From: Micromonospora sp. CPCC 205371
GTDB lineage: Bacteria; Actinomycetota; Actinomycetes; Mycobacteriales; Micromonosporaceae
NCBI RefSeq assembly: GCF_026130045.1
Contig: NZ_JAIBNX010000093.1
Coordinates: 1-32,529 of the forward strand
Reading direction: 5' to 3'
DNA: 32,529 nt
Shown here: piece by piece, positions 6,009 to 31,460 of the stretch
How the letters are laid out: each line of letters opens with the position of its first letter
How positions within the stretch are numbered: the first letter of the stretch is position 1
The notes under the pieces: generated by a model
Seen by the model: the letters and a program-made list of their open reading frames with translations, nothing else
Told to the model about the DNA's origin: nothing
Databases searched by the model: none
Program-made: the position numbers and the translations under genes

Positions 6009-6029
6009 CTCTTCCGCCGATCAAGGGCG
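6009..6029 (+). repeat. Terminal fragment of the 84-bp repeat (copy 3, partial)
   Basis: These 21 bases are identical to the reverse complement of 20760-20780, which is the outer end of repeat copy 1 including 6 bases outside its terminal inverted repeat. They include the 12-bp end CGCCGATCAAGG (6015-6026). The match stops at the edge of the hsaB stop codon region. The fragment sits 81 nt beyond the protease stop, in the same relative orientation as the full copies have to their upstream genes. Confidence 0.7.
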
Positions 6030-18083: not shown

Positions 18084-18913
18084 TGCCCATCGACCCCGCC
18101 GTCGCGATCGGTGCCGAACTGCCCGGCCGCGACCTGTCCTGGACCAGCACCGACGTGCTGCTGTACCACCTCGCGCTGGGCGCCGGCGCCGAGGAGATGT
18201 CCTATGTGTACGAGCGAGACCTGCGGGTGCTGCCGACGTTCGCGGTCGTCGCGGGCACCCTGCGCGACACCGAGCCGCCCGCGCTCGACATGCCGGGCGT
18301 CGACGTCGGCCTCGACCGGGTCCTCCACGGGCGGGAGGAGCTGGTCATCCACCAGCCGCTGCCCGTGGCCGGTGAGGCGAAGGCGTGGTCGCGGATCGCG
18401 GACGTGTACGACAAGGGCAGCGCGGCCATCGTCGTGCTCGAGATGGGCACGCCGTACTACACCATCCGCAGGAGCGTCTTCCTGCGCGGCGAGGGCGGCT
18501 TCGGCGGCGATCGCGGGCCGAAGACCACGGTGGCGGTGCCGGAGCGGGCACCGGACGCCGAAGTGCTGTGCCGCACGTGGCCGGAGCAGCCCATGCTGTA
18601 CCGGCTGCTGGGTGACCGCAACCCGTTGCACGCCGATCCGGACTTCGCCGCTCTGGCCGGCTTTGCACGCCCGATCATGCACGGCCTGTGCACGTACGGG
18701 ATGGCGTGCAAGGCCGTCGTGGACGCGATGCTGGACGGCGATCCGACCGCGGTGACCGGCTACAGTGCCCGCTTCGCGGGCGTGGTCTTCCCCGGCGAGA
18801 CGCTGCGCGTGCGCGCCTGGCGCGCCGACGGCGGCATCGCCGTCACCGCGACGGTGGCCGACCGCGACGACGCCCCGGCCCTCTCCGACGCCCTGGTGAG
18901 CGTCAGCCGGTAG
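18083..18913 (+). CDS. hsd4B: MaoC-type (R)-enoyl-CoA hydratase next to kstD
   Basis: 276 aa double-hotdog hydratase 2 family protein. The C-terminal hotdog has the hydratase signature YRLLGDRNPLHADPDFA with Asp178 and His183 as catalytic pair, followed by ARPIMHGLCTYG. The N-terminal hotdog is degenerate. In mycobacteria the gene after kstD (annotated hsd4B; Rv3538 type) is of this kind and hydrates enoyl-CoA steroid side-chain intermediates, so I carry that name over by context. ATG at 18083 sits in a TGATG overlap with the kstD stop and has an AGGAGG SD at good spacing; the GTG at 18080 is too close to the SD. The end overlaps the convergent oxidase gene by 11 nt. Confidence 0.86.
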   Translation: MPIDPAVAIGAELPGRDLSWTSTDVLLYHLALGAGAEEMSYVYERDLRVLPTFAVVAGTLRDTEPPALDMPGVDVGLDRVLHGREELVIHQPLPVAGEAKAWSRIADVYDKGSAAIVVLEMGTPYYTIRRSVFLRGEGGFGGDRGPKTTVAVPERAPDAEVLCRTWPEQPMLYRLLGDRNPLHADPDFAALAGFARPIMHGLCTYGMACKAVVDAMLDGDPTAVTGYSARFAGVVFPGETLRVRAWRADGGIAVTATVADRDDAPALSDALVSVSR

Positions 18914-20324
18914 CTGGCGGGATGTTCTGGTTGAGGCGGAAGAGGTTGTCCGGGTCGTAGCGGCGCTTCAGGTCGCGGAGCCGGTCGTACTTCGCGGGCC
19001 CGTACGCCTGCCGCACGCGGTCGTCGCCCTCGTCCATCAGGAAGTTGACGTAGACGCCCGCGTGGTAAGGGCTGAGCGCCGACCAGAAGTCGCGCACCCA
19101 CTCGCGCTCTTCGTCGAACCCGTCCGGGCCGTCGGTAGCGGCGGTGATGTTGAACGTGTGGCCGGTGACCCGGCCGTGGAAGGCCGTGTCGTCCGCGCCG
19201 ACGCGGGCCGCGGCGCCGCCGACCTGCCAGATGGGGAACGCGGTGCGCGGCGACCGGATACGCATGGCGTGCTCGACGGTGATGTCGATGACGTCGTCGG
19301 TCAGCTCGACGACGTCGCAGGCGCGCATGTAGTACCACCAGCCGTGCGGGTAACTCGGGTCGAACATCGCCTGGTGCGCAAGGAATGGCTTGGGCCGGCA
19401 CAGGTCGAGCACCGGCGACCCGAACCGCCGCAGCGGCCGCACCACGCGCTCGCCCTCGTCGACCGGGCCGGCGTAGCAGCACACGACGGCGACCACGAGC
19501 TCGCCGTGCAGCTCGGTCGGGATGAACGGCAGCGGCGGGGCCTTGCGGTGCACCACCGCGGTCATCAACTCGTCCGGCGCGTCCGCGATCCAATCCCGGT
19601 AGAACCGCAGCACCCTGTGCGACTCGGCCATCGGCCAGAAGATCGGCCCGGCCAGGACCGTCGGGCCCACCGGGTTGAGCCGGAACTCGAACTCGGTGAC
19701 GACGCCGAAGTTTCCACCGCCGCCGCGCACGCCCCAGAACAGGTCGGCGTTTTCGCTCGCGCTCGCCTTGACGAACTCGCCGCCCGCGGTGACCACATCG
19801 ACGGACAGCAGCTGGTCGATCGTGAGCCCGTACTTGGGCATCAGCCAGCCGAGCCCACCGCCCAGCGTGAGCCCGGCGACGCCGGTGTGCGTGACGATGC
19901 CGGCTGGCACGGCCAGGCCGAACTCCTGCGTCTCGCGGTCCAGTTCGCCGATCAGCACGCCGGCCTGTACCCGGGCGGTGCGCGCGTCGGGGTCGACACG
20001 CACACCCTTCATCGGCGACAGGTCGATCACCAGGCCGCCGTCGCAGACCGAGTACCCGGGGAAGCTGTGCCCGCCGCCGCGGACGGCGACGGTCAGGCCA
20101 TGCTCCCGCACGAACCGGGCCGCGGTCATGACGTCCGCGACCCCGGCACACCGGACAATCAGCGCCGGACGGCGGTCGATAGAACCGTTCCAAACCCGAC
20201 GGGAAGGGTCATACTGGGCATCGGCCGGCTGGACGAGATCGCCCCGGAGTGTTGTCACAAGATCAGTAACCGCGCGTTCGTCGACCGGAGCCGGCGGAAC
20301 GGCAGCCGTAGCCAGGCTGGTCAT
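18903..20324 (-). CDS. FAD-linked oxidase, BBE/6-hydroxynicotine oxidase type
   Basis: 473 aa VAO/PCMH-fold flavoprotein. The N-terminal FAD-binding domain contains VRGGGHSFPGYSV, where His86 is the expected covalent FAD attachment residue, then GVAGLTLGGGLGWLMPKYGLT and GVRGGGGNFGVVTEFEF. The C-terminal berberine-bridge (BBE) segment ends YDPDNLFRLNQNIPP. The second, cysteinyl FAD attachment of bicovalent members is absent: the equivalent stretch reads AGIVTHTG. It oxidises an alcohol or amine with O2 or another acceptor, substrate unknown. ATG at 20324 is preceded by GAGGG. No KstR operator stands before it, so its link to steroid metabolism is only by neighbourhood. Confidence 0.88.
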   Translation of the reverse strand: MTSLATAAVPPAPVDERAVTDLVTTLRGDLVQPADAQYDPSRRVWNGSIDRRPALIVRCAGVADVMTAARFVREHGLTVAVRGGGHSFPGYSVCDGGLVIDLSPMKGVRVDPDARTARVQAGVLIGELDRETQEFGLAVPAGIVTHTGVAGLTLGGGLGWLMPKYGLTIDQLLSVDVVTAGGEFVKASASENADLFWGVRGGGGNFGVVTEFEFRLNPVGPTVLAGPIFWPMAESHRVLRFYRDWIADAPDELMTAVVHRKAPPLPFIPTELHGELVVAVVCCYAGPVDEGERVVRPLRRFGSPVLDLCRPKPFLAHQAMFDPSYPHGWWYYMRACDVVELTDDVIDITVEHAMRIRSPRTAFPIWQVGGAAARVGADDTAFHGRVTGHTFNITAATDGPDGFDEEREWVRDFWSALSPYHAGVYVNFLMDEGDDRVRQAYGPAKYDRLRDLKRRYDPDNLFRLNQNIPPATG

Positions 20325-20840
20325 GCCCTCAGTGTCGTCCTGTCCCGCCGGCCTGTCAGGAGCTTGGCGCCGCCGAACGCTCAGGATCAGGATCAAGTTT
20401 CGGGCTACCGCGGCGCCCGTCGTGGTCGAGACCCGCTGCTCCCGCGGCCTCACCCTCCGCGGTTCACGATCAACCCCCGCGGGTCGTGGGAGCGGGGAGA
20501 GCGAGGCCGCGGGAGCGACGGCATGGACCGCGACGGACGTCGCGGCAGCTCAACGCCGGAAGCCCCGAGACGCCGGACGCGCGCCGCCCACGCCAGCCGC
20601 GCCGCCCCCGGGCGATCGCGCCGCCCGCGGCAATCGCGCCACCACGCCACCCGCGCTCGCCGCCCCGCTGGCACCGCCACGCGCCGCCCGCGCCGATCAA
20701 GGAAGATCCCATGGATCAAGGGCAAATGCACGCGGAAAAGAGATCCAACCACGTGCATTCGCCCTTGATCGGCGGAAGAGCCAGCGCGGCGGGCGCGGCG
20801 CGCGGGGCGCGGGGCCGCAGCGCGCGGGGGCCCCGCAGGG
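20325..20840. other. Gene-free stretch of 516 nt holding repeat copy 1
   Basis: This region holds the promoter side of the BBE oxidase gene at its left and the 3' region of ltp2 at its right. Open frames here are GC-rich artefacts; the only peptide shared with elsewhere in the window comes from the repeat. Both flanks of the repeat are G/C-only tracts rich in CGCG and CCGC runs with several short dyads. I see no RNA gene and no KstR operator. Confidence 0.7.
20691..20774 (-). repeat. 84-bp hairpin repeat, copy 1
   Basis: Reads 84 bp with exact 12-bp terminal inverted repeats, CGCCGATCAAGG at 20691-20702 and CCTTGATCGGCG at 20763-20774. 79 of 84 positions match the reverse complement of 31169-31252. 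Inside it, arms at 20714-20735 and 20749-20770 pair over 22 bp around a 13-nt loop; on the minus strand the only two imperfections are G.U wobbles. The element begins 66 nt beyond the ltp2 stop codon, in ltp2's transcriptional direction. I do not recognise it as a named family. Confidence 0.85.
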
Positions 20841-21998
20841 TTAGGGGGACGTGAGGATCAGGGCGCTGGTGGGGACGCCGGTGCCGGCGGTCACCAGGAC
20901 GGGGCCCGGGTCGGGGACCTGGTTGACGGCGGTGCCACGCACCTGGCGTACCGCCTCGGCGATGCCGTTGACGCCGTGGATGTACGCCTCGCCGAGCTGG
21001 CCGCCGTGCGGGTTGAGGACCAGCCGGCCGCCCGGCTCGACGCCGCCGTCCGCGAGGAACCGCCCGGCCTCGCCGCGCGGGCAGAAGCCGAGCTCCTCCA
21101 GCTGCATCAGCACGTACGGCGTGAAGTGGTCGTACAGGACGGCCACCCGCACGTCGTCCGGGGTGTATCCAGACCGGCGCCAGAGCTGGCGCGCCACGAC
21201 GCCCATCTCCGGCAGGCCGGCGAGGTCGTCGCGGTAGTAGCTGGTCATCACGTACTGGTCGGGGCCGCTGCCCTGGGCGGCCGCACGGATGACGGCGGGC
21301 GGATGGGGCAGGTCGCGTGCGCGGTCGAGCCGGGTCACCACGAGGGCGACCGCTCCGTCGCTCTCCTGGCAGCAGTCGAGCAGCCGCAGCGGCTCGGCGA
21401 TCCAGCGCGACGCCTGATGCTCGGCGAGCGTGATGGGGCGCTCGTAGAACCACGCGTGCGGGTTCGTGGCGGCGTGGCGGCGGCTGGCGACCGCCACCCG
21501 ACCGAAGTCCTCTGTGGACCCGCCGTACTCGTGTAGGTACCGCCGGGCCACCATCGCCACCATCGCGGCGGGCGTGGCAAGGCCCATCGGGTAGTGCCAG
21601 CCGGCGTCCACACCGGACGACGTGGACGCGCCGGCGAGGGCGTGCGACACCTGCCCGAACCGGCGGCCGGAGCGCTCGTTGAGGGCCCGGTAGCAGACCA
21701 CGACGTCGGCGAGCCCGGCGTCGACGGCCAGCATTGCCTGCTGCACGACACCGCAGGCCGCGCCGCCGCCGTACCCGACCTGGCCGAAGAACGTCAGCTC
21801 CGGCACGCCCAGCTCGCGGGCCACGGCGATCTCGGTGCTGGTGTCCATCGTGAACGTCACCAGACCGTCGACATCGGACGGTGCCAGCCCGGCGTCGGCG
21901 AGCGCGGCCCGGACCGCCTCCACGGCCAGCTTGAGCTCGCTGCGCCCGGAGTCCTTGCTGAACTCGGTCGCGCCGATCCCCACGATGGCGGCGCTCAT
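20841..21998 (-). CDS. ltp2: Ltp2, steroid side-chain retro-aldolase (thiolase fold)
   Basis: 385 aa, thiolase-superfamily (SCP-x/nonspecific lipid transfer protein type) aldolase. In the known pathway Ltp2 cleaves 17-hydroxy-3-oxo-4-pregnene-20-carboxyl-CoA to androstenedione and propionyl-CoA, working in complex with the DUF35 domain of ChsH2. N terminus MSAAIVGIGATEFSKDSGRS is typical. Other marks are FGQVGYGGGAACGVVQQA (71-88), DHFTPYVLMQLEELGFC with Tyr295, and NPHGGQLGEAYIHG with Tyr339, tyrosines in the regions where this group places its catalytic residues. The classic thiolase Cys-His set for condensation is not complete. ATG overlaps the chsH1 stop (ATGA, 21995-21998). Last gene of the six-gene operon. 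Confidence 0.92.
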   Translation of the reverse strand: MSAAIVGIGATEFSKDSGRSELKLAVEAVRAALADAGLAPSDVDGLVTFTMDTSTEIAVARELGVPELTFFGQVGYGGGAACGVVQQAMLAVDAGLADVVVCYRALNERSGRRFGQVSHALAGASTSSGVDAGWHYPMGLATPAAMVAMVARRYLHEYGGSTEDFGRVAVASRRHAATNPHAWFYERPITLAEHQASRWIAEPLRLLDCCQESDGAVALVVTRLDRARDLPHPPAVIRAAAQGSGPDQYVMTSYYRDDLAGLPEMGVVARQLWRRSGYTPDDVRVAVLYDHFTPYVLMQLEELGFCPRGEAGRFLADGGVEPGGRLVLNPHGGQLGEAYIHGVNGIAEAVRQVRGTAVNQVPDPGPVLVTAGTGVPTSALILTSP

Positions 21999-22378
21999 GG
22001 CAGTCGCACCCGCACCGTGCCGGTGACGTGCGCGCCGAGGCTGTTGCGCCCGGCCACGTCGACCACGCATTCGCCGCCGGCGACCTCCGCCACCGTGCCC
22101 GTGAAGGTGAGCGTCTCGTACGGGTAGCACGGCACGCCCAGCCGGATGGCGATCCGGCCCACCACCGCCTCGGGGCCGGCCCAGTCGGTGACGTACCGCT
22201 GCACCAGGCCCGTGGTGGTGAGGATGTTGAGGAAGATGTCCTTGCCGCCGCGCTGGACCGACCGGTCGCGGTCGTGGTGCACGTCCTGGAAGTCGCGGGT
22301 GGCGATGGCGGTGCTGACGACGAGCGTCGGCGTGATCTCGACCGACCACTCAGGCAGCGCGGTGCCCGCGGCGGTCAC
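21995..22378 (-). CDS. chsH1: ChsH1, MaoC-like hydratase subunit
   Basis: 127 aa single-hotdog MaoC-like protein, the usual size of ChsH1. With the N-terminal domain of ChsH2 it forms the heteromeric enoyl-CoA hydratase that hydrates the 3-carbon side chain 17(20)-ene-CoA before Ltp2 cleavage. The segment ATRDFQDVHHDRDRS (about 26-40) carries the catalytic Asp and His region, and KDIFLNILTTTGLVQRYVTDWAG follows. GTG start at 22376-22378 forms a GTGA overlap with the chsH2 stop, and its own stop overlaps ltp2. Confidence 0.92.
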   Translation of the reverse strand: MTAAGTALPEWSVEITPTLVVSTAIATRDFQDVHHDRDRSVQRGGKDIFLNILTTTGLVQRYVTDWAGPEAVVGRIAIRLGVPCYPYETLTFTGTVAEVAGGECVVDVAGRNSLGAHVTGTVRVRLP

Positions 22379-23259
22379 GACAGCCGCCACGCGGGCAGCG
22401 ACAGCGACGCGTCGACGCGCACGAAGTCGACCCGCACGGGCGCGCCGATCCGCGCCTCGGCCGGGTCGCAGTCCAGCAGTTCTCCCACCACGCGTACCCC
22501 TTCCGGCAGCTCGACCAGCGCCACGACGAACGGTGCCTTGCGGCCCGGCACCTGCGGGTGGTGGTGCACGACGTAGCTGTACACGGTGCCGGTGCCGGCC
22601 GCGACCACGTATCCCGGGCGCATGGCGCCGCAGCGCGGGCAGGACGGGCCGGGCGGGTGCCGCAGCGCCCCGCACTCCTCGCACCGCCAGATCCGCAGCT
22701 CTCCCTTGACCGTGCCGGCCCAGAAGAACTCGGTGTCGGGGCTCGCGACGGGCCGGAGCACGGCCTGCGGCGCCGGCTTGTACTTGAGCACCCGGAACAG
22801 CATCGTGGCGACCGGCTCGGTGCCGACGTACCAGGTGCTCTCGGTGGTGACGAACCAGCCTTCGCCGAGCGCGGTGCGCTTGGGGCCGGTGACGTCGACC
22901 AGCCGGCCGCGCACCGCGACCCGCTCCCCCACGCGCAGGTACCGGTGGTAGGTCTGCTCGCAGTTGGTGGCCACGACGGAGGTGAATCCGGCCGCGTCGA
23001 GGACCGCTGTCATCGCGGCGAGCGGGTCGTGCGGGTCCGGAACGGGGCGCAGTCCCCGCATCGTCCACACCTGCGTCATCGCGGGTGGCGCGATCCCGTC
23101 CCGCTCGTACACCGGGTTGTCGTCACCCATCGCCTCCAGCCAGTTGCGCACCATCGGCAGGTTGACAGCGTCCCGTGCCACCCGGGGCGGGCTCTCTCCG
23201 GCCGCGATGATGCGCTTGGCCTCATCGAGGATGCTGGCATCCACGAAGGAAGCGCTCAT
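22375..23259 (-). CDS. chsH2: ChsH2, MaoC-like/DUF35 fusion subunit
   Basis: 294 aa two-domain protein. The N-terminal hotdog/MaoC-like half (about 10-160) pairs with ChsH1 for hydration. The C-terminal DUF35 half has a rubredoxin-like zinc ribbon (Cys193, Cys196, Cys207, Cys210; CEECGALRHPPGPSCPRCG) and an OB fold (about 215-290), which in homologues docks Ltp2. ATG at 23257-23259 overlaps the chsE2 stop (ATGA); the 3' end overlaps chsH1 by 4 nt. All residues expected of the zinc ribbon are present. Confidence 0.93.
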   Translation of the reverse strand: MSASFVDASILDEAKRIIAAGESPPRVARDAVNLPMVRNWLEAMGDDNPVYERDGIAPPAMTQVWTMRGLRPVPDPHDPLAAMTAVLDAAGFTSVVATNCEQTYHRYLRVGERVAVRGRLVDVTGPKRTALGEGWFVTTESTWYVGTEPVATMLFRVLKYKPAPQAVLRPVASPDTEFFWAGTVKGELRIWRCEECGALRHPPGPSCPRCGAMRPGYVVAAGTGTVYSYVVHHHPQVPGRKAPFVVALVELPEGVRVVGELLDCDPAEARIGAPVRVDFVRVDASLSLPAWRLS

Positions 23260-24401
23260 CGCGGCACCCGCGGCAACGATAGGCCGGCCGTCGCGATCAG
23301 TTCCCGCTGGATCTCGTTGGCCCCGCCGCCGAACGTCAGCACCAGGTTGCGCTTGACCTGGATGTCCAACCAGGACAGCAGCCGCCCGGTTTCCTCGTCG
23401 GCCGGGTCGCCGTACCTGCCGACCACCTCCGCCAGCTCCTCCCCGAGCCGTTGCAGGCTCTCCGAGGCGAACACCTTGGTCGCCGAGGCGTCCGCCACCC
23501 GCACCGGGTCGACGGCCGCCACCTGCCAATTGAGAAGCTCGTTGACGCGCAGCGTGGCGTGCGTGCGGCTCAGCACCCGCCGCACGTCCGGCTCGTCCAC
23601 GAGGGACCGCGCCGCCGCCCAGTCACGCACCCGGTCGTAGAGCGCGCCCAGCCGGCCGGCCGGGCCGAGCATCACCCGCTCGTGGTTGAGCTGGGTCGTG
23701 ATGAGACGCCAGCCGGCGTTCTCGGCGCCGACCCGCATCTCGACCGGTACCCGCACGTCGCTGTAGTACGTGGCGTTGACGTGGTGCGCGCCGTCGGCCG
23801 TGATGATGGGAGTCCACGAGTACCCGGGGTCTTTGGTGTCGACGATGAGGATCGAGATGCCCTTGTGCTTGGGTGCGTTCGGGTCGGTGCGGCACGCCAG
23901 CCACACGTAGTCGGCGTCGTGCGCGCCCGTGGTGAACGTCTTCTGTCCATTCACGACATACGCGTCACCGACACGCACGGCGGTGGTCCGCAGCGACGCG
24001 AGGTCGGTGCCGGCGCCCGGCTCGGTGTACCCGATGGCGAAGTGGACGTCGCCGGCCAGGATGCGGGAGAGGAAGAACGCCTTCTGCGAAGCTGTGCCAT
24101 GGGTCAGCAGGGTCGGCCCGACGGTCTGCAGCGTCACCGAGGGCAGTGGCACGTCGGCGCGCACGGCCTCGTCGACGAAGATCTGCTGCTCCACGGGCCC
24201 GAAGCCGCGCCCGCCGTACTCCACCGGCCAGCCCACGCCCAGCCAGCCGTCGCGCCCCATCCGCCTCACGACGGCCCGGAGCACGGGACCGTGCCGGTCG
24301 CGCAGCAGCGCCGCCCGCTCGTCGGGTGTCATGAGGCCGGAGAAGTAGGCCCGCAGTTCGGCGCGCAGCGCGTACTGCGCCTCGGTCAGGTCGACGAACA
24401 C
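23256..24401 (-). CDS. chsE2: ChsE2, acyl-CoA dehydrogenase (FadE29 type)
   Basis: 381 aa ACAD. With ChsE1 it dehydrogenates the 3-carbon (propionyl-CoA) side chain of the steroid. Visible marks are GWPVEYGGRGFGPVEQQIF (58-76), the FAD/substrate strands FAIGYTEPGAGTDLASLRT and NGQKTFTTGAHDADYVWLACRT, and Glu241 in NHERVMLGPAG, the position of the catalytic base in this subgroup. The C terminus FGGGANEIQRELIA is typical. GTG at 24399-24401 has a GGGAGG SD at 5 nt. It starts within the last 16 nt of chsE1 and ends in an ATGA overlap with chsH2. The alpha2beta2 arrangement is inferred from homologues. Confidence 0.92.
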   Translation of the reverse strand: MFVDLTEAQYALRAELRAYFSGLMTPDERAALLRDRHGPVLRAVVRRMGRDGWLGVGWPVEYGGRGFGPVEQQIFVDEAVRADVPLPSVTLQTVGPTLLTHGTASQKAFFLSRILAGDVHFAIGYTEPGAGTDLASLRTTAVRVGDAYVVNGQKTFTTGAHDADYVWLACRTDPNAPKHKGISILIVDTKDPGYSWTPIITADGAHHVNATYYSDVRVPVEMRVGAENAGWRLITTQLNHERVMLGPAGRLGALYDRVRDWAAARSLVDEPDVRRVLSRTHATLRVNELLNWQVAAVDPVRVADASATKVFASESLQRLGEELAEVVGRYGDPADEETGRLLSWLDIQVKRNLVLTFGGGANEIQRELIATAGLSLPRVPR

Positions 24402-25417
24402 GGCACCTCCCCGAGGCGGTACTCCGAGCCACCGATCAGCCGCACCAGGTCGGTCACGACGGCGGAGTACCGGTGTAGCGGGTAGCTCACGTCGACTCCG
24501 ACGCCGCCGTGCAGGTGGTGGCAGGTGCGCATGGCGGGCGGCCCCTGACTGGCGAGCCAGTACGCGGCGATGCTCAGGTCGGTGTCGGCGGGGCGGCCGG
24601 TGCCGAGGCGCCACGCCGCGGCGAGCGCCGCCAGGTGCGTCGTGCGTGCGGCCACGTACACGTCGGCGACCTGCTGCGCCACCGCCTGGAACGTGGCGAG
24701 CGGCCGACCGAACTGCTCCCGTTCACCCACATACGCCGACGTGCTCGCCAGCGCCCCGGCGAGGACACCCGCGCCGGTCACGCAAATGGCGGCCAGCGCG
24801 CACCGGTACAGGTCGGCCACCGTCACGCCCGACAGCAGCTCCGCTGCGACCGCGTCGAGCCGCACGGTGTACTCCGGGTCGCCGGTCGAGCTGTGCGTGC
24901 GTTGGAGTGTCACGCCCGCGTCCGCGGGGTCCACAATGGCCACCGCCGTCCCACCGTCAATGGATACCGGCACCAGGATTCGGCGAGCCTGCTCGGCGTA
25001 CGGGACGCCCACCTTGACGCCGCTCACGGCGGGAGTCGCCACGGTGCGAGGGCGCGCCGGCATGGGGGCGCCGGGCTCGCGCAGGGCGGCGGTCAGCAGC
25101 GCGTCGCCGGCCGCGACACCGCTCAGCAGCGCCCCCCGCTGCGCCTCGTCGGTGCCACGTGCGGCCGGTAGGACCCCTAGCGCGAGGGCGAGCGCGGGCA
25201 CCGGCACGGCCCGCCGGCCGACCTCCGCCAACACGAGGCAGGTCTCGACCACGCCGAGCCCCGCCCCGCCCGACTCCGGCGGTATCGCCAGCGCGAGCAG
25301 CCCGGCCTGGGCGAGCGCCTTCCACACCCGGTCGGGCGGGTCGTCGCCGGTGCCGTCGAGCACCTCGGCGGCGAGCCGTACCACGGCCTCCTGCGTCTCG
25401 TCGGGAGCGAAATCCAT
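24386..25417 (-). CDS. chsE1: ChsE1, acyl-CoA dehydrogenase (FadE28 type)
   Basis: 343 aa, the shorter ACAD partner of ChsE2. N-terminal helices begin MDFAPDETQEAVVRLAAEVL; the middle domain is weakly conserved; the C-terminal domain has YVGEREQFGRPLATFQAVAQQVADVY and HHLHGGVGVDVSYPLHRY. In the ChsE1-ChsE2 pair this subunit contributes FAD-binding contacts rather than the catalytic base, and no NHER-type base is present here, in line with that role. ATG at 25415-25417 shares a base with the upstream stop (TGATG). An SD GGGAGG lies 8 nt ahead. Confidence 0.91.
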   Translation of the reverse strand: MDFAPDETQEAVVRLAAEVLDGTGDDPPDRVWKALAQAGLLALAIPPESGGAGLGVVETCLVLAEVGRRAVPVPALALALGVLPAARGTDEAQRGALLSGVAAGDALLTAALREPGAPMPARPRTVATPAVSGVKVGVPYAEQARRILVPVSIDGGTAVAIVDPADAGVTLQRTHSSTGDPEYTVRLDAVAAELLSGVTVADLYRCALAAICVTGAGVLAGALASTSAYVGEREQFGRPLATFQAVAQQVADVYVAARTTHLAALAAAWRLGTGRPADTDLSIAAYWLASQGPPAMRTCHHLHGGVGVDVSYPLHRYSAVVTDLVRLIGGSEYRLGEVPCSST

Positions 25418-27486
25418 CAGCGATCCTCCCGTGGTAGGCCGAGCACCCGCTGGGCCACGACCGACAGCAGGATCTGCGTGGTGCCGCCGGCGATGCTCAG
25501 GCACCGGCTCAGCAGGAACTCGTGCACCGCCTCGGCACTGTCGCCGTCGGCCGCGGCACCGGCTTCGCCGAGGCACACCAGCGCCGCCTCGGCGCCCGCC
25601 TGCCGGTGTGCCACGCCGACCAGCTTCGCGACGGCCGACTCCGGGCCGCTGGGCTGGCCGTCGAGGCGGCGCAGCGCGGCCCGTACGTCCAGAAGGGACA
25701 CCGCGAGGCCACCCGCCACGAGACCGCCGAGCAGCTCCGCCGGGGCGCCGGCCGCCAGTCCGCCGAGCAGCCGCTCGACGCCCTCGCCGAACGACGAGCC
25801 GCGTGACATCGCCACCCGCTCGTACGCCAGCGTGCCCCGCGCCAACCGCCACCCGTCGCCGGGCTGACCCACGACACAGTCGTCGGGCACGAACGCACCG
25901 TCGAGGAAGACCTCGTTGAAGACCGCACGCCCGGTCAGCTCGCGCAGCGGCCGCACCTCGACGCCCGGCGACCGCATCGGCACGAGGAAGTACGTGAGCC
26001 CCTTGTGTTTGGGCGCGTCGGGGTCGGTGCGGGCCAGGCAGATGCCCCAGTCGGCGTCGGCGGCGAGGGAGGTCCACACCTTCTGGCCGGTGAGCCGCCA
26101 CCCGCCGGGCACCGGCTCGGCACGGGTGCGCAGGGAGGCCAGATCGGAGCCGGCCTCCGGCTCGCTGAACAGCTGGCACCAGGTGATCTCGCCGCGCAGC
26201 GACGGGCCGGCGAAGCGCTCGCGCTGGGCGTCAGTGCCGTGGCCAAGGATCGTGGGCACCGCCCAGCCGGCAATCGCGATGTCGGGTCGGGTCACCCCGG
26301 CACGGTCCAGCTCGGCGTCCAGGGCGAGCTGCTCGGCCGGCCCGGCACCGAGCCCATACGGGACCGGCCACTGTGGAGTGAGGTACCCAGCTTCGGCGAG
26401 GGCGGTGCGCCGCTCCCCCTCCGGCAGCGCGGCTATGTCGGCCACCGTGGCCCGCATCTTCGTCGAAACAAAAACCTCCCCTATGGACAGGGTGCGCCGG
26501 GCTCCGGCCACCGCCAGCTCGGCGGTTCGCGCACGCCAGGCCGCACCGCCGCCGAGAAGCTGCCGCAGCGCCACGGCCCGGCGCAGGTACAGGTGCGCGT
26601 CGTGCTCCCAGGTGAACCCGATGCCGCCGAGCACCTGTACGCAGTCTTTGGCGTTGTCGACGCCCGCGTCCAGCGCGACCGACGCCGCGGCGGCCACCGC
26701 GAGGGGAAACTCCTCGGGCGCCTCGTCGAACGCCCTTGCCGCGTCCCACACGAGGGCGGTGGCCCGCTCGGCGCGGCAGAGCATCTCGGCGCACATGTGC
26801 TGTACCGCTTGGAAAGCGCCGATCGGCCGGCCGAACTGCTGGCGCGCCTTGGCGTACTCGACGGCCGTGCGCGTGGCCCAGCCGGCGACGGCGGTGGACT
26901 CGACGGCGGCGAGCAGCGCCGCGATGTCCTTGACCCGCGCGGTCGCGAGCGGCAGGCGGCGCTCGGCTGGCAGCACGCCGGCCTCGATGACGCCGATCGG
27001 CCGCGAGAAGTCCACGGCCGCGCGCCGCGTCACGCGAGCGTCCATCAGGTACCAGCCGGTGTCCCCCGGAAGGAGCACGTGCGAGGCGCCGGCCCCGAGG
27101 ACCAGCCCGCCTGGCGCCAGGCCGATGGCCACGGTCGCGCCGCCGGACGCGAGCGCGGGCAGCAGCTCCTTGGCGGCGGGCAGATCGGCGTGGTCGGCCA
27201 GCGCCAGCGCGGCGACCAGTGTGGGCAGCACCGGGCCGGGTGCCAGTGCCTCGGCGAGCGCCTCGACGGCGGTGGCCAGGTCGGCGACGGTGCCACCGGC
27301 TCCACCGGAGGCCGCCGGAAGCGCGATCGCGAACACCCCGAGCTCCGCCATGCCCGCCCAGTGCCGCTCCCAAGCCGCCGGCGTGTCCTCCATCGCGCGG
27401 ACGGTCGCGAGCGTGCCCGCGCCGGCGGCCCAGCGGCGCACCGCCTCCCGCAGGGCCCGCTGCTCCTCCGTGATTGCGATCGGCAC
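25417..27486 (-). CDS. fadE34: FadE34/ChsE3, double-length acyl-CoA dehydrogenase
   Basis: 689 aa made of two fused ACAD halves. Residues 1-330 end with VEYAKARQQFGRPIGAFQAVQHMC and VLGGIGFTWEHDAHLYLRR; residues about 340-689 contain PQWPVPYGLGAGPAEQLAL, CQLFSEPEAGSDLASLRT, TGQKVWTSLAADADWG and Glu556 in YERVAMSRG, the catalytic base position. Fused ACADs of this length next to kstR are FadE34 (ChsE3), which act on the 5-carbon (cholenoyl-CoA) side chain. The GTG at 27484-27486 lies 8 nt from the KstR operator and has no SD; with a -10-like TCTAAT (27498-27493) the mRNA may be leaderless. It opens a six-gene operon. Confidence 0.92.
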   Translation of the reverse strand: MPIAITEEQRALREAVRRWAAGAGTLATVRAMEDTPAAWERHWAGMAELGVFAIALPAASGGAGGTVADLATAVEALAEALAPGPVLPTLVAALALADHADLPAAKELLPALASGGATVAIGLAPGGLVLGAGASHVLLPGDTGWYLMDARVTRRAAVDFSRPIGVIEAGVLPAERRLPLATARVKDIAALLAAVESTAVAGWATRTAVEYAKARQQFGRPIGAFQAVQHMCAEMLCRAERATALVWDAARAFDEAPEEFPLAVAAAASVALDAGVDNAKDCVQVLGGIGFTWEHDAHLYLRRAVALRQLLGGGAAWRARTAELAVAGARRTLSIGEVFVSTKMRATVADIAALPEGERRTALAEAGYLTPQWPVPYGLGAGPAEQLALDAELDRAGVTRPDIAIAGWAVPTILGHGTDAQRERFAGPSLRGEITWCQLFSEPEAGSDLASLRTRAEPVPGGWRLTGQKVWTSLAADADWGICLARTDPDAPKHKGLTYFLVPMRSPGVEVRPLRELTGRAVFNEVFLDGAFVPDDCVVGQPGDGWRLARGTLAYERVAMSRGSSFGEGVERLLGGLAAGAPAELLGGLVAGGLAVSLLDVRAALRRLDGQPSGPESAVAKLVGVAHRQAGAEAALVCLGEAGAAADGDSAEAVHEFLLSRCLSIAGGTTQILLSVVAQRVLGLPREDR

Positions 27487-27494
27487 GCTGGAAT

Positions 27495-27508
27495 TAGAAC
27501 ACGTTCCA
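27495..27508. promoter_or_regulatory. KstR operator 4 (fadE34 / kstR)
   Basis: TAGAACACGTTCCA fits TnnAACnnGTTnnA. It lies 8 nt before the fadE34 start and 76 nt before the kstR ATG, so it should repress the side-chain operon and give KstR autorepression, as is known for the fadE34-kstR intergenic region in mycobacteria. Confidence 0.88.
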
Positions 27509-27584
27509 CTACGTTGATACCAGTACACATGCGCGTAACAGCAGGATTGCTAGTCTTGATGCACCTAGATCCCGGAGAGGAAGC

Positions 27585-28244
27585 ATGGCAGCACCGAGAA
27601 CAAATACCAGCAACCCCGCTCTGGGCACGCTCGCCGCCGAGGCCGAGCAGGGCTCAGCCGCGCAGCGCGACCGGCGCCGGCGCATCCTCGACGCGACGCT
27701 CCAGCTCGCCTCCAAGGGCGGCTACGACGCCGTGCAGATGCGCGCCGTCGCGGAGCGCGCCGAGGTGGCGCTCGGCACCCTGTACCGCTACTTCCCCTCC
27801 AAGATCCACCTGCTGGTCTCGGCGCTCGCCCGGGAGCTGGACCGCTCGCAGGAGAAGCTCAGCCGGGCCCCGATCCCCGGCGACACCTCGTACGACCGGA
27901 TGCTCTTCGTGCTCGGCAAGGTGACCCGCTCGATGCAGCGCGACCCGCTGCTGACCGAGGCGATGACGCGGGCGTTCATGTTCGCCGACCCGTCGGCGGC
28001 CACCGAGGTCAACGCGGTGGCGCGGCTGATGGAAGACATGTTCACGCGGGCCATCCACGAGGGCGAGTCCACCGAACCCTCCGCGGACGACCGGGCGACG
28101 GCCCGGGTGATCGGTGACGTCTGGCTGTCGAACCTGGTCGCCTGGGTGACCCGGCGCGCCTCCGCCAACGACGTCATCAACCACCTCGAGCTCGCCGCCC
28201 GGCTGCTGCTCGCGACCCCTCGCCCCGAGGGAAACGCAGAGTAG
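27585..28244 (+). CDS. kstR: KstR, TetR-family repressor of steroid catabolism
   Basis: 219 aa. TetR N-terminal helix-turn-helix at about 34-80: RRILDATLQLASKGGYDAVQ, then MRAVAERAEVALGTLYRYF and PSKIHLLVSAL. The ligand domain keeps blocks characteristic of KstR (RDPLLTEAMTRAFMFADPSAATEV, VIGDVWLSNLVAWVTRRAS). KstR is released from DNA by steroid CoA thioesters. The first 24 residues (Thr/Asn/Ala-rich) extend beyond the mycobacterial protein. ATG 27585 has a GGAGAGGA SD. Divergent from fadE34 with an operator in between; six matching operators in this window make it the local regulator. It ends 6 nt from the convergent SRPBCC gene. Confidence 0.94.
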   Translation: MAAPRTNTSNPALGTLAAEAEQGSAAQRDRRRRILDATLQLASKGGYDAVQMRAVAERAEVALGTLYRYFPSKIHLLVSALARELDRSQEKLSRAPIPGDTSYDRMLFVLGKVTRSMQRDPLLTEAMTRAFMFADPSAATEVNAVARLMEDMFTRAIHEGESTEPSADDRATARVIGDVWLSNLVAWVTRRASANDVINHLELAARLLLATPRPEGNAE

Positions 28245-28250
28245 GGAAGC

Positions 28251-28676
28251 TCAGAGTAGGGCGGTGAACTTGGCCAGGGACTGCGCGGCGGCGGTCCCGG
28301 CCTGCTTCTCCAGCATGCCCGCCATCGGCCCGGCCAGCGCCGGCCCGTTGAACTCCATCTCATACGTGATCTTGGAACCGTCGCCGGACGGCTCGACGAA
28401 GAAGCGGTTCGCCGCCTTGACGCCCATCGGGCCGTCGCCGGCCAGCTCCAGCCGCCCCGCGTCGGCGGTCGCCACCCGCCACGCCATCTCGGCGGGCATC
28501 CCCATGAGCTTCACCCGCTGGCGGTACGCGGCGCCCTCGGTGAGCGTCGCTGGCACCTCCCCCGTGAAGCCCTCGTGCATGGTGTTCCACTCGGCCCACC
28601 GGGGCAGGTCGGTCGCGAGCTCCCACACGCGCTCCGGTCCGGCGGCGGCTTCGGCTGAAACGGTTACCTTCGGCAC
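28251..28676 (-). CDS. SRPBCC (START/polyketide-cyclase-like) small protein under KstR control
   Basis: 141 aa with the helix-grip pattern of SRPBCC proteins: VTVSAEAAAGPERVWELATD, DLPRWAEWN, a long FNGPALAGPMAGMLEKQAG C-terminal helix, and alternating strands between. Such proteins have a deep hydrophobic cavity that binds lipids, sterols or aromatic compounds. GTG at 28674-28676 with AGGAGG at 6 nt. A KstR operator ends just at the SD (28687-28700), so the gene very probably belongs to the steroid regulon. A role as steroid-binding or carrier protein, or in handling an intermediate, is inference; I know no characterised steroid-pathway member with this position. Confidence 0.82.
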   Translation of the reverse strand: MPKVTVSAEAAAGPERVWELATDLPRWAEWNTMHEGFTGEVPATLTEGAAYRQRVKLMGMPAEMAWRVATADAGRLELAGDGPMGVKAANRFFVEPSGDGSKITYEMEFNGPALAGPMAGMLEKQAGTAAAQSLAKFTALL

Positions 28677-28686
28677 TGCGTCCTCC

Positions 28687-28700
28687 TGTAACTTGTTCTA
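28687..28700. promoter_or_regulatory. KstR operator 5 (SRPBCC gene)
   Basis: TGTAACTTGTTCTA fits TnnAACnnGTTnnA. It covers the TAG stop codon of the upstream kstD (28698-28700) and touches the AGGAGG SD of the SRPBCC gene (28682-28687), leaving the transcript a very short leader. Confidence 0.82.
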
Positions 28701-30356
28701 ACTCTGGGCCAGGTCACGGCCGGCGACGTACCCGAAGGTCATCGCCGGACCGAGCGTCGAGCCGGCGCCCGCGTAGCTGTAGCCCATGACCGCTCCGCTC
28801 GCGTTTCCGGCCGCGTAGAGGCCGGGGATCACCGAGCCGTCGGGGCGCAGCGCGCGGGCGCGCGCGTCGGTGCGGATACCGCCCTTCGTGCCCAGGTCGC
28901 CGGGGACGATCTTGAAGGCGTAGTACGGCGGCAGGTCGAGCGTCGCCAGACAGGGGCTGGGCTGGTTGGTGGGGTCGGCGAAGTACGCGTCATAGGCGCT
29001 GTCGCCGCGCAGGAAGTCGGTGTCGCGGCCGGCGCGGGCCAGGCCGTTGAAGCGGGTGATCGTGGCGCGCAATGCCGCCGGCGGTACACCGATCTTGGTG
29101 GCCAGGCCCTCGATGGTCCAGTCGCGGTGCAGGGCACCGCTCGAATACCACGAATCCGGGTACGGGAGCGCCGGCGAGACATCCTTGAAGAGGTACCGGT
29201 TGCGGTACTTCTGGTCGGTCACCATCCAGCACGGGATGTGCGGCACCTGGGCGGTGTGCTTGTCGTACATGGTGTGCACGACGTCGGAGTACGGCGCGGC
29301 CTCGTTGACGAACCGTTTTCCCGCCGCGTTGACGAAGATGTTTCCTGGCAGGGTGCGCTCGGACAGGCAGAAGTACGGCCCGTCGGGCAGCGGGATCATC
29401 GGGCCCCACCAGGCGTCGTCCATGAGCTCCAGGCCGGCGCCGGCCCGCGCACCCGCCTCGATGCCGTCGCCGGTGTTCGAGGCGGCGCCGACCGTCCAGT
29501 CCACGCCGATCGGCTCCCGCTGGAACTGCTTGCGCATGCGCTCGTTGTGCTCGAACCCGCCCGAGGCGATGAGCACCCCTCGGGCCGCCTTGACCAGCAG
29601 ATCCTCACCGTCGGCGGTGGTCGCCCAGACGCCCGCCACCCGCCCGTTCGCCACGTACAGGTCGGTCAGCGCGGTATTGAGCAGCACCGGCACGTCGGCG
29701 GCGATCAGGCCCGCGCGCAGGCCACCCGCCAGCGCCTGACCCATCGTGATCGGCTTCTGCCCCCGCAGGGAGAGCTCCAGGTACCGGCGGACGATCTCAG
29801 TGGCGGTGGCCAGGCCACGCGGGTGGCGCGCGATCAGGGCCAGCCACTTGTAGTCGACGGCGAGCACCACCGTGCCCGCCGGCACGGCCAGGTACGGCGG
29901 ATTGAGGTTGGCGGCTTCGGTGCCGAGGATGTTGGCGTCGAGCGGCGCCGGCTCGATGGAGCGGCCGTTCGGCATGCCGCCGGGCAGCTCCGGGTAGTAG
30001 TCCGGGTAACTCTCCATCCAGGAGAACCGCAGCGGCGTGTTGCGCAGCAGGAACGAGATGGTGGCGGGGCCGTTGTCCAGGTACGCCCGCTGCCGCGCCG
30101 CGGGTGCGCCCGACCCGACGACCGCCGACAGGTAGGTGGCGGCCTTGGCCGGCGTATCGGGTACGCCCGCCGCGAGCACCACCTCGTTGTTGGGCACCCA
30201 GATGCCCGCGCCGGAGCGGGCCGTGGAGCCGCCGAACTTTCCGGCCTTCTCGATGAGGATGGTCCGCAACCCCTGTTTGGCCGCGGCGAGCGCGCCGGTC
30301 ATGCCCGCCGCACCAGCCCCGACCACGACGGCGTCGTACTCTACAGTGGTGGTCAT
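28698..30356 (-). CDS. kstD: KstD, 3-ketosteroid delta1-dehydrogenase (copy 2)
   Basis: 552 aa paralogue of the KstD at 16443-18083, with the same block order. FAD motif VVGAGAAGMTGAL, catalytic positions Tyr117 (ESYPDYYPE), Tyr328 (GPYFCLSER), Tyr528 and Gly532 (SYAGAGSTLGPAMTFGY). Differences cluster in the middle (KHTAQVPHIPCW versus SSVPAW), which may reflect different steroid substrates. ATG at 30354-30356 is 4 nt from GGAGG; the GTG at 30359 is too near the SD. Its promoter contains the same 14-base operator as the first kstD, TATAACCTGTTCTA in the gene's direction. Confidence 0.93.
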   Translation of the reverse strand: MTTTVEYDAVVVGAGAAGMTGALAAAKQGLRTILIEKAGKFGGSTARSGAGIWVPNNEVVLAAGVPDTPAKAATYLSAVVGSGAPAARQRAYLDNGPATISFLLRNTPLRFSWMESYPDYYPELPGGMPNGRSIEPAPLDANILGTEAANLNPPYLAVPAGTVVLAVDYKWLALIARHPRGLATATEIVRRYLELSLRGQKPITMGQALAGGLRAGLIAADVPVLLNTALTDLYVANGRVAGVWATTADGEDLLVKAARGVLIASGGFEHNERMRKQFQREPIGVDWTVGAASNTGDGIEAGARAGAGLELMDDAWWGPMIPLPDGPYFCLSERTLPGNIFVNAAGKRFVNEAAPYSDVVHTMYDKHTAQVPHIPCWMVTDQKYRNRYLFKDVSPALPYPDSWYSSGALHRDWTIEGLATKIGVPPAALRATITRFNGLARAGRDTDFLRGDSAYDAYFADPTNQPSPCLATLDLPPYYAFKIVPGDLGTKGGIRTDARARALRPDGSVIPGLYAAGNASGAVMGYSYAGAGSTLGPAMTFGYVAGRDLAQS

Positions 30357-30372
30357 CACACCTCCTCAGAAT

Positions 30373-30386
30373 TAGAACAGGTTATA
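30373..30386. promoter_or_regulatory. KstR operator 6 (kstD copy 2 / thioesterase)
   Basis: TAGAACAGGTTATA fits TnnAACnnGTTnnA; its reverse complement is identical to operator 3. It overlaps TATAAC -10 elements in both directions (plus strand 30383-30388; minus strand 30386-30381), so both genes should be repressed together. Confidence 0.9.
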
Positions 30387-30394
30387 ACTAAGAC

Positions 30395-31108
30395 ATGGGC
30401 TGGAGCTACCACACGATCGACTCCACTTCGCCGCCTACCCCCGAATCCGCCTCCGTGGAGGAGCGGCGCGCGGCCATCGCGGAGCTCGGCGAGGCGCTAC
30501 GCACCCTCGTCGAGCAGGCCGCCGCCACCGAGTCACCGGCCGACGAGCTGCGCCGCGCGGCAGCCCTCGTGCGCGAGGCCACCATCCCGGTCGGCAAGCA
30601 GCAGCGCACCCGCGGCCAGCTCCCCAGCGCCGACGACCTGCTCGGCGGCGTGCGGATGTACAACCCGGTGTGCGGTGACGGCAGCGCTATCGCGCCGCCG
30701 CTGCACGTCGAGGTCGTCGACGGGACCGCCGTCGGCACGTGCACGCTCGGGCTCACCTATGAAGGCCCGCCGATGTACGCCCACGGCGGCATCAGCGCGC
30801 TGCTGCTAGACCAGATCCTGGGGTACGCCACCAGCGTCGCCGGCCATCCGGGAATGACCGTGCGGCTCGACACCCAGTACCGTGCACCGGTGCCGTTGCA
30901 GACACCGTTGCGGCTGGCAGCGTCGGTCGTAAGCGTCGACGGCCGCAAGGTAACGGCCCGCGCCACCATCACGACGGAGGCCGAGCCGGAAGCGGTACTC
31001 GTCGAGGCGACCGGCTTGTTCGTGGCCCTCCGCTCCGACCAGGCCGAACTCCTGTTCGGCGAGGCCCTACACCCCGACGCCTCAAACCCAGCAGCCGCCC
31101 ACGACTAA
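30395..31108 (+). CDS. Hotdog-fold (PaaI-like) acyl-CoA thioesterase under KstR control
   Basis: 237 aa. An alpha-helical N-terminal extension (about 1-85, rich in Glu/Ala/Arg) precedes a PaaI-type hotdog domain: TLGLTYEGPPMYAHGGISALLLDQILGY starts near residue 117 and includes the HGG catalytic-helix motif, followed by MTVRLDTQYRAPVPLQTPLRLAASV. It should hydrolyse a CoA thioester in the cytosol. ATG 30395 lies 8 nt after a KstR operator with no SD, 6 nt beyond a TATAAC -10, so it is probably leaderless. In steroid catabolism it may release trapped CoA from stalled intermediates; this is inference. Confidence 0.87.
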   Translation: MGWSYHTIDSTSPPTPESASVEERRAAIAELGEALRTLVEQAAATESPADELRRAAALVREATIPVGKQQRTRGQLPSADDLLGGVRMYNPVCGDGSAIAPPLHVEVVDGTAVGTCTLGLTYEGPPMYAHGGISALLLDQILGYATSVAGHPGMTVRLDTQYRAPVPLQTPLRLAASVVSVDGRKVTARATITTEAEPEAVLVEATGLFVALRSDQAELLFGEALHPDASNPAAAHD

Positions 31109-31460
31109 CCCACTCCCCACTCCCCCGCCCCCGCCCCCCGCCCCGCGCCGCCCGCGCCGCCCTCTGCGCGCCGATCAAGGGCGAATGCACGTGGTTCGAT
31201 CTCTTTTCCGCGTGCGTTTGACCTTGATCGATGAGATCTTCCTTGATCGGCGAACGATCGCCGCGTGCCGCGGCGCGGCGCACCGCGCCCGGGGCCGGCG
31301 GGGTCCGGTCGTGCGCGCCTGGCGCCGCGCGACTGGTAGCGGCGGCGGTCTCGGCGGCGGCGCCGTCGGCCCTATACGGTTCGTCGCCGGCGGGGGGATG
31401 CCGCGCGCCGAGATCGGTCCGGCGGGCGGCGAGATCGGTCCGGCGGCGGCGAGGTCGGGG
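31109..31460. other. 352-nt convergent intergenic region with repeat copy 2
   Basis: After the thioesterase stop there is a C-rich tract (about 31110-31165), then the 84-bp repeat, then G/C-rich sequence up to the convergent deaminase stop. I see no gene. Open frames running through it start in the repeat and continue antisense to the deaminase. Confidence 0.7.
31169..31252 (+). repeat. 84-bp hairpin repeat, copy 2 (inverted relative to copy 1)
   Basis: Reverse complement matches copy 1 at 79 of 84 positions; the 12-bp ends CGCCGATCAAGG and CCTTGATCGGCG are intact. Arms at 31173-31194 and 31208-31229 pair over 22 bp around a 13-nt loop with one true mismatch and three G.U wobbles on the plus strand. 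It begins 60 nt after the thioesterase stop, in that gene's direction. Confidence 0.85.

Follow-up and report, generated by a model that had tools for sequence, protein, structure and literature searches.

A palindromic repeat dispersed behind genes in Micromonosporaceae and its possible reading as paired DNA half-sites

Intrinsic terminators are hairpin-forming sequences that lie behind genes, also between convergent ones; in high-GC actinobacteria those with a U-tract are uncommon, and transcription stop is poorly charted there. Miniature inverted-repeat transposable elements (MITEs) are short and non-coding, carry terminal inverted repeats and multiply in lineage bursts, and DNA uptake sequences are short motifs with lineage dialects, often standing as inverted pairs behind genes. 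Here we describe an element resembling all three, present as two 84-bp copies in a 32,529-nucleotide window (the whole stretch of DNA analyzed) from Micromonospora sp. CPCC 205371, contig NZ_JAIBNX010000093.1. Both 84-mers are members of a dispersed, non-coding palindromic repeat spread across the family Micromonosporaceae. The repeat differs from intrinsic terminators in that it shows no U-tract match, forms one sequence family with conserved tips and shows no covariation in three genomes. It differs from MITEs in that neither a target duplication nor a partner transposase was found, PF01797 being the one transposase family searched, and in that centres are unshared among copies from a large genus (g4) that we take to be Micromonospora-like. 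Unlike DNA uptake sequences, it has few solo tips (6 of 102 clusters in the source genome, 3 of 52 in the congener G004).

Repetitive extragenic palindromes (REPs) and bacterial interspersed mosaic elements (BIMEs) are described by Di Nocera et al. 2013 (PMC3733652) as dispersed extragenic palindromes, often in inverted pairs, that lie behind coding regions and mostly between unidirectional or convergent genes; REPs there are 20-40 bp long and their GTAG or CGTC tag is unpaired, and CGTC-tagged REPs without a known transposase are included. The present element is likewise dispersed, extragenic and biased towards gene 3' ends, whereas its copies are 54-84 bp long and their tip, GATCAAGG, is paired and family-wide. 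Di Nocera et al. do not use the word Actinobacteria. The REP-associated tyrosine transposase (RAYT; Y1 transposase, PF01797) was found in none of six genomes of the source genus, the same search being positive in 5 of 14 control genomes, and identity with RAYT-linked REPs was rejected because the genus lacks a Y1 transposase. Gbn, a Streptomyces GATC-binding nucleoid protein, is reported to recognize GATC followed by (A/T)T (PMC9239103); the likeness to its sites lies in GATC-containing DNA and an actinobacterial reader, here putative, and the difference in the tip, which is GATCAAGG. Literature searches turned up no paper on this repeat among the works listed, which for its letter strings were 20 of 29.

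Our favored reading, which we hold tentatively, is that the copies are paired DNA half-sites which lie where transcription units end, serve as a barrier or terminator in both directions and have multiplied in lineage bursts. Each copy would consist of two inverted, sequence-specific half-sites, in each of which the tip GATCAAGG is family-wide and the inner arm specific to the lineage; the two flank, with near-fixed spacing, a centre often containing GATCTC. A putative protein would read the paired half-sites in DNA and set up the barrier or terminator, and Rho-dependent release would be in keeping with the C-rich, G-poor RNA that approaches from either side. Two of the six species in the genus have amplified the element to hundreds, with added 19-bp tip units. 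A tip fixed across lineages, together with independent arms and near-fixed length, points to a protein reading DNA half-sites, and the position and orientation of the copies suggest a link to transcript ends. A wider version of this proposal, which we regard as doubtful, is that the family marks transcription-unit ends with a punctuation code of each lineage's own, at hundreds of sites in some species, in which the specificity of the putative protein would co-evolve with the dialects while the tip GATCAAGG stays fixed and the inner arm drifts. The favored reading predicts a trans-acting partner, traceable by matching dialects to proteins across positive genomes. A gene-end repeat with a fixed tip and dialects offers a handle on transcription stop in high-GC actinobacteria, and also on the means by which extragenic palindromes can spread when no RAYT is present.

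A genome-wide search, as the original prediction had proposed, revealed many extragenic copies in the source genome (G004 and G003 are congeners; other G numbers are working labels of compared genomes). Scoring the best 40 of 528 first-look candidates gave at least 41 matches to the 84-mer of 80 nt or more, and its 5'-half pattern with up to 2 mismatches matched 210 times (reversed control, 0). With the family search pattern GATCAAGG-N38..44-CCTTGATC there are 413 matches in the source genome, 564 in G004 and 6, 1, 1 and 0 in the other four congeners. At least one match occurs in 61 of 354 family genomes and 15 of 44 genera (reversed control, 0), 31 of the 61 having 5 or more; order-wide, across 397 genomes, 5 of the 318 outside the family are positive, with 1-3 matches each. 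The 12-mer CGYCGATCAAGG occurs 778 times in the source genome, 1922 in G004, 52-136 in the other four congeners and 85 in G032, against 0-2 for the control. Hundreds of copies are therefore present in two of six species of the source genus, and by these counts the element is amplified in both. Local duplication, which the original prediction would have accepted had only these two copies existed, is ruled out by the hundreds genome-wide. Several copies stand at contig ends of the source assembly (e.g. loci L002, L027 and L028); the repeat thus appears to interrupt the assembly, and the counts given here may be too low.

The architecture is highly regular. Among 103 cores in the source genome 100 have a readable centre, and 97 of these have a single 19-bp unit, always on the downstream side; in G004, 94 of 97 cores have one or more units downstream, with 0-5 upstream. 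Central GATCTC is nearly invariant in these 100 and 97 cores, and the tips in both genomes start CGYC. Other lineages have forms of 54-58 bp, each with its own inner arms, so that tips are common across lineages and inner arms form lineage-specific dialects; in G064, 47 of the 50 matches listed measure exactly 54 bp, the search having permitted 41-71. Centres differ among copies in Micromonospora-like genomes; of the 63 centres in G195 and G221, both of that group, 10 contain GATCTC or GAGATC, against 0.25 expected. The sharing of this motif with the source and G004 centres argues for one superfamily and hence for a common origin of the element across genera. A coding origin, suggested by a period-3 look to variable positions 3, 15, 18, 21 and 24 in the source genome, was dropped because in the Micromonospora-like dialect the most variable arm positions are 13 and 15 and few copies lie in called genes.

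The original prediction took the wobble asymmetry of the stem, G.U in gene orientation where the other strand would have A.C mismatches, as a sign that the RNA fold matters, and called for a covariance analysis. We re-dealt the arms among copies and compared observed with expected Watson-Crick pairs. No pair covariation emerged in the source genome (99 copies, z -1.46), G004 (97 copies, z -0.54) or G064, where 47 of 50 listed copies, 3 being dropped for other length and the genome holding 75, gave 432 pairs observed and 430.5 expected, of 799. The wobble asymmetry fails as evidence for an RNA fold, as re-dealt arms reproduce the mispairs in the source genome (G.U 161 vs 159.5, A.C 42 vs 41.1) and in G004 (G.U 87 vs 83.4, A.C 84 vs 83.5). 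Counted in loop orientation, G.U exceeds A.C by 252 to 113 over all 25 pairs in the source genome but not in G004 (116 to 105); a T24.G42 pair is common to 70 of 100 source copies, so the excess there reflects an arm-specific consensus. With a conserved half-site motif, near-fixed spacing and independent arms, the behavior of the element is closer, on sequence evidence, to that of a paired DNA recognition site than to that of a conserved RNA fold.

Placement was assessed with solo tips (6 source, 3 G004) kept apart from the context counts, with genes outside the window called by a codon-usage caller rather than taken from annotation, and on source stretches chosen for holding copies and even G004 tiles. 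Copies in the source genome fall in 35 convergent, 28 tandem and 9 divergent gaps, plus 22 at stretch ends and 2 in coding sequence, while its intergenic bases are 17% convergent, 55% tandem and 28% divergent. The G004 tiles gave 24 convergent, 15 tandem and 5 divergent, plus 2 at stretch ends and 3 coding, against 13%, 59% and 29% of intergenic bases. The element is closer to the stop than to the start in 21 of 28 tandem gaps (source) and 11 of 15 (G004), and median distances are 97 and 89 nt from stops and 184 and 186 nt from starts. GATCTC is oriented along the gene of the nearer stop in 49 of 66 source copies (p 1e-4) and 53 of 80 in G004 (p 0.005). The biases to gene 3' ends and in orientation that the original prediction had suggested thus hold, and counterparts in G004, given below, support them as well. 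Among the signs by which that prediction set the repeat apart from a neutral mobile one, these two are present, and covariation is absent or weak. Orientation was also set against replication polarity in G004, sampled over about 0-7 Mb of a 9.6-Mb contig with 5-29 copies per bin.

The flanks of the element are distinctive. Convergent gaps with an element have medians of 352 bp (source) and 301 bp (G004), against 7 and 18 bp without one, or 172 and 161 bp when element-free gaps of at least 60 bp are considered. Incoming flanks in convergent gaps are skewed towards C when an element is present (+0.22, n 27, in the source genome; +0.33, n 19, in G004) and show -0.03 (n 22) and -0.01 (n 29) without one; at 30 loci of other family members, composition is 51% C and 24% G before the element and 51% G and 23% C after. 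Tandem repetition exceeds our threshold in 59 of 192 source flanks and 46 of 193 G004 flanks, against <1% of shuffled flanks and 1.3% (source) and 0.3% (G004) of element-free intergenic pieces, and may reflect slippage at a stalling site. The idea that the flanks are mutual inverted copies was rejected, the pattern not being specific to the element.

The two window copies and their surroundings are as follows.
20691..20774, minus strand: 84-bp repeat, copy 1; it follows the stop of the thiolase-domain (ltp2-like) gene by 66 nt and shares that gene's orientation
20710..20774, minus strand: core of copy 1, a 65-bp palindrome consisting of a tip and two inner arms around the GATCTC centre
20691..20709, minus strand: additional 19-bp unit on the downstream side of the copy 1 core, with outer tip CCTTGATCGGCG at its end
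31169..31252, plus strand: 84-bp repeat, copy 2; it follows the thioesterase stop by 60 nt and shares that gene's orientation
31169..31233, plus strand: 65-bp core of copy 2
31234..31252, plus strand: extra 19-bp unit of copy 2
6015..6029, plus strand: solo tip CGCCGATCAAGGGCG, in a convergent gap
20841..21998, minus strand: thiolase-domain gene (ltp2 in the original prediction) whose 3' end has copy 1; nearest stop 20841
30395..31108, plus strand: 4HBT thioesterase gene whose 3' end has copy 2; nearest stop 31108
31109..31168, plus strand: C-rich, G-poor stretch from the thioesterase stop to copy 2

The anatomy first described for these copies was reproduced: they are identical at 79 of 84 positions in opposite orientation, their terminal repeats are exact, the inner stem is 22 bp with a 13-nt loop, the distances to the upstream stops are those listed, and in gene orientation the stem imperfections are G.T and T.G in copy 1 and G.A, G.T, T.G and T.G in copy 2. 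The terminal sequence CGCCGATCAAGG has five exact matches in the window (6015, 20691, 20763, 31169 and 31241), and with at most one mismatch eight, against 0.27 expected from shuffles. The solo tip CGCCGATCAAGGGCG is possibly a remnant of an element; the matching G004 stretch has a full element elsewhere, behind the ortholog of the gene at 666-1673. A TetR regulator gene lies between the thiolase-domain and thioesterase genes; the names ltp2 and kstR are those of the original prediction, and Pfam supports the folds only.

Comparison between genomes suggests that some sites are inherited. G004 has elements behind the orthologs of both the thiolase-domain and thioesterase genes, oriented as in the source genome, with stop-to-GATC distances of 29 vs 71 nt and 60 vs 65 nt, respectively (G004 against source). 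Across 119 orthologous gene ends, drawn from source stretches chosen for copies and in part from anchors at G004 loci fetched for theirs, and with both ends of one convergent gap able to count one element, 5 are shared, 5 are occupied in the source genome only, 9 in G004 only and 100 in neither (p 0.002); 5 further ends were too close to an end. All five shared ends have the sense orientation in both genomes. Two smaller tests point in the same direction without reaching significance: a gap-level test that skipped 24 short gaps (1 shared, 2 source only and 2 G004 only of 62; p 0.14) and an ortholog test on chance overlap (3 shared, 2 source only and 8 G004 only of 53; p 0.054). Inner arms differ at the sites shared by the source genome and G004, which implies either a joint change of the two arms or replacement of copies. 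Ten orthologous sites in G195 and G221, chosen by likeness of the centre, which favors the centre, match at 185 of 200 inner-arm and 151 of 191 centre positions, with flanks at ~68%; eight of the ten are equal in length, and a third genome, G337, retains two. Judged by these alignments, the site in G195 and G221 is old and constrained.

An RNA-level 3' element is possible though unlikely. On that reading the palindrome, once transcribed, would form a long hairpin with a role in termination or in protecting or processing mRNA 3' ends, and copies would be alike through recent spread. It would account for gene-end position with sense orientation, for inner arms that differ between the source genome and G004 with both sides changed, for a mild G.U over A.C excess in gene orientation (84 vs 56 and 78 vs 59, respectively) and for the strong predicted folds: the 84-mers fold at -50.1 and -44.4 kcal/mol in gene orientation with 0 of 200 shuffles as good, and their opposite strands at -42 (0 of 200) and -33.4 (1 of 200). 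However, the arms are independent within the source genome, G004 and G064, A.C is as frequent as expected, near-fixed length and conserved tips require another cause, neither copy has the GC-rich hairpin followed by a T run of an intrinsic terminator, and Rfam returned no family at gathering score, a further search giving sub-threshold microRNA matches only. A selfish, MITE-like repeat, whose tips GATCAAGG a putative transposase would recognize and which would tend to land behind genes, we also consider improbable. Short, non-coding, multicopy and with 12-bp terminal inverted repeats, the element has the build of a MITE, and its amplification in two of six congeners, presence/absence differences at syntenic gaps, and a kept tip beside an inner arm that differs between lineages, as at transposon ends, fit as well. 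However, at ends as drawn no 2-9 nt target duplication exceeds re-dealt pairs, except at one 8-nt G004 copy; no Y1 transposase occurs in the six genus genomes, the only family searched being PF01797; no neighbor gene recurs (largest cluster 5 of 292); the 84-mer has no match on plasmids or phages, the viral scan having used the Micromonospora-like dialect pattern only; and the G195 and G221 sites have been retained by vertical descent, their arms more conserved than their centres. A non-autonomous hairpin transposon inserting after genes, as the original prediction suggested, may still apply, although the marks of transposition sought were not found. That the pair is a local inverted duplication serving to flip the 10-kb block it brackets is highly improbable: hundreds of copies exist genome-wide, and G004 is colinear across the block, not inverted, with elements at both places.

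Several results weigh against paired DNA half-sites. An RNA hairpin can form, since the arms are perfectly complementary at the tips in almost every copy, and arm pairing gave z 1.02 in Micromonospora-like genomes (59 copies from part-lists of seven genomes), 1.78 for all 63 copies of G195 and G221, and 3.15 in G032, the last from 10 of 24 copies with two sub-dialects mixed and 14 copies one base shorter excluded. A consensus terminator scan found none at either copy (1 match in the region vs 2.0 expected), and the GATCAAGG palindrome is present in 0 of 80 named ltp2-like loci. The orientation bias in tandem gaps alone is weak in G004 (20 of 36, against 20 of 28 in the source genome), 30 loci in other genomes divide into 10 tandem, 9 convergent, 5 coding, 3 divergent and 3 at ends, and most source and G004 sites are unshared, which implies high turnover. 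The half-site-reading protein is itself putative. RNA hairpin action and selfish spread may also co-exist with a gene-end barrier.

Other arrangements were seen near these elements. The congener G003 (L213-L217, L220, L221) has outward-facing tips (CCTTGATCGRCG ... CGYCGATCAAGG, ~107-119 bp) around a different hairpin, and at G004 L077, L101 and L103 the element and its flank are tandemly repeated ~190-220 bp apart. A second palindrome family, GGTGATCATGRRGTTAGCG..., occupies G004 gene-end gaps L136, L140, L152 and L159 (4 of 380 gaps scanned), and one gene is followed by a GATCAAGG element in the source genome (L177) and by a GATCATG element in G004. Further strong palindromes of the GTGACTGGAACACCAGTGCTG and GTGAACATCTA types, in about two gaps each, occur in gene-end gaps L174 and L181 of the source genome and L136, L137 and L138 of G004. 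Within the window, a FAD_binding_4/BBE oxidase gene at 18903-20129 lies between orthologous neighbors and has no match in the colinear G004 stretch.

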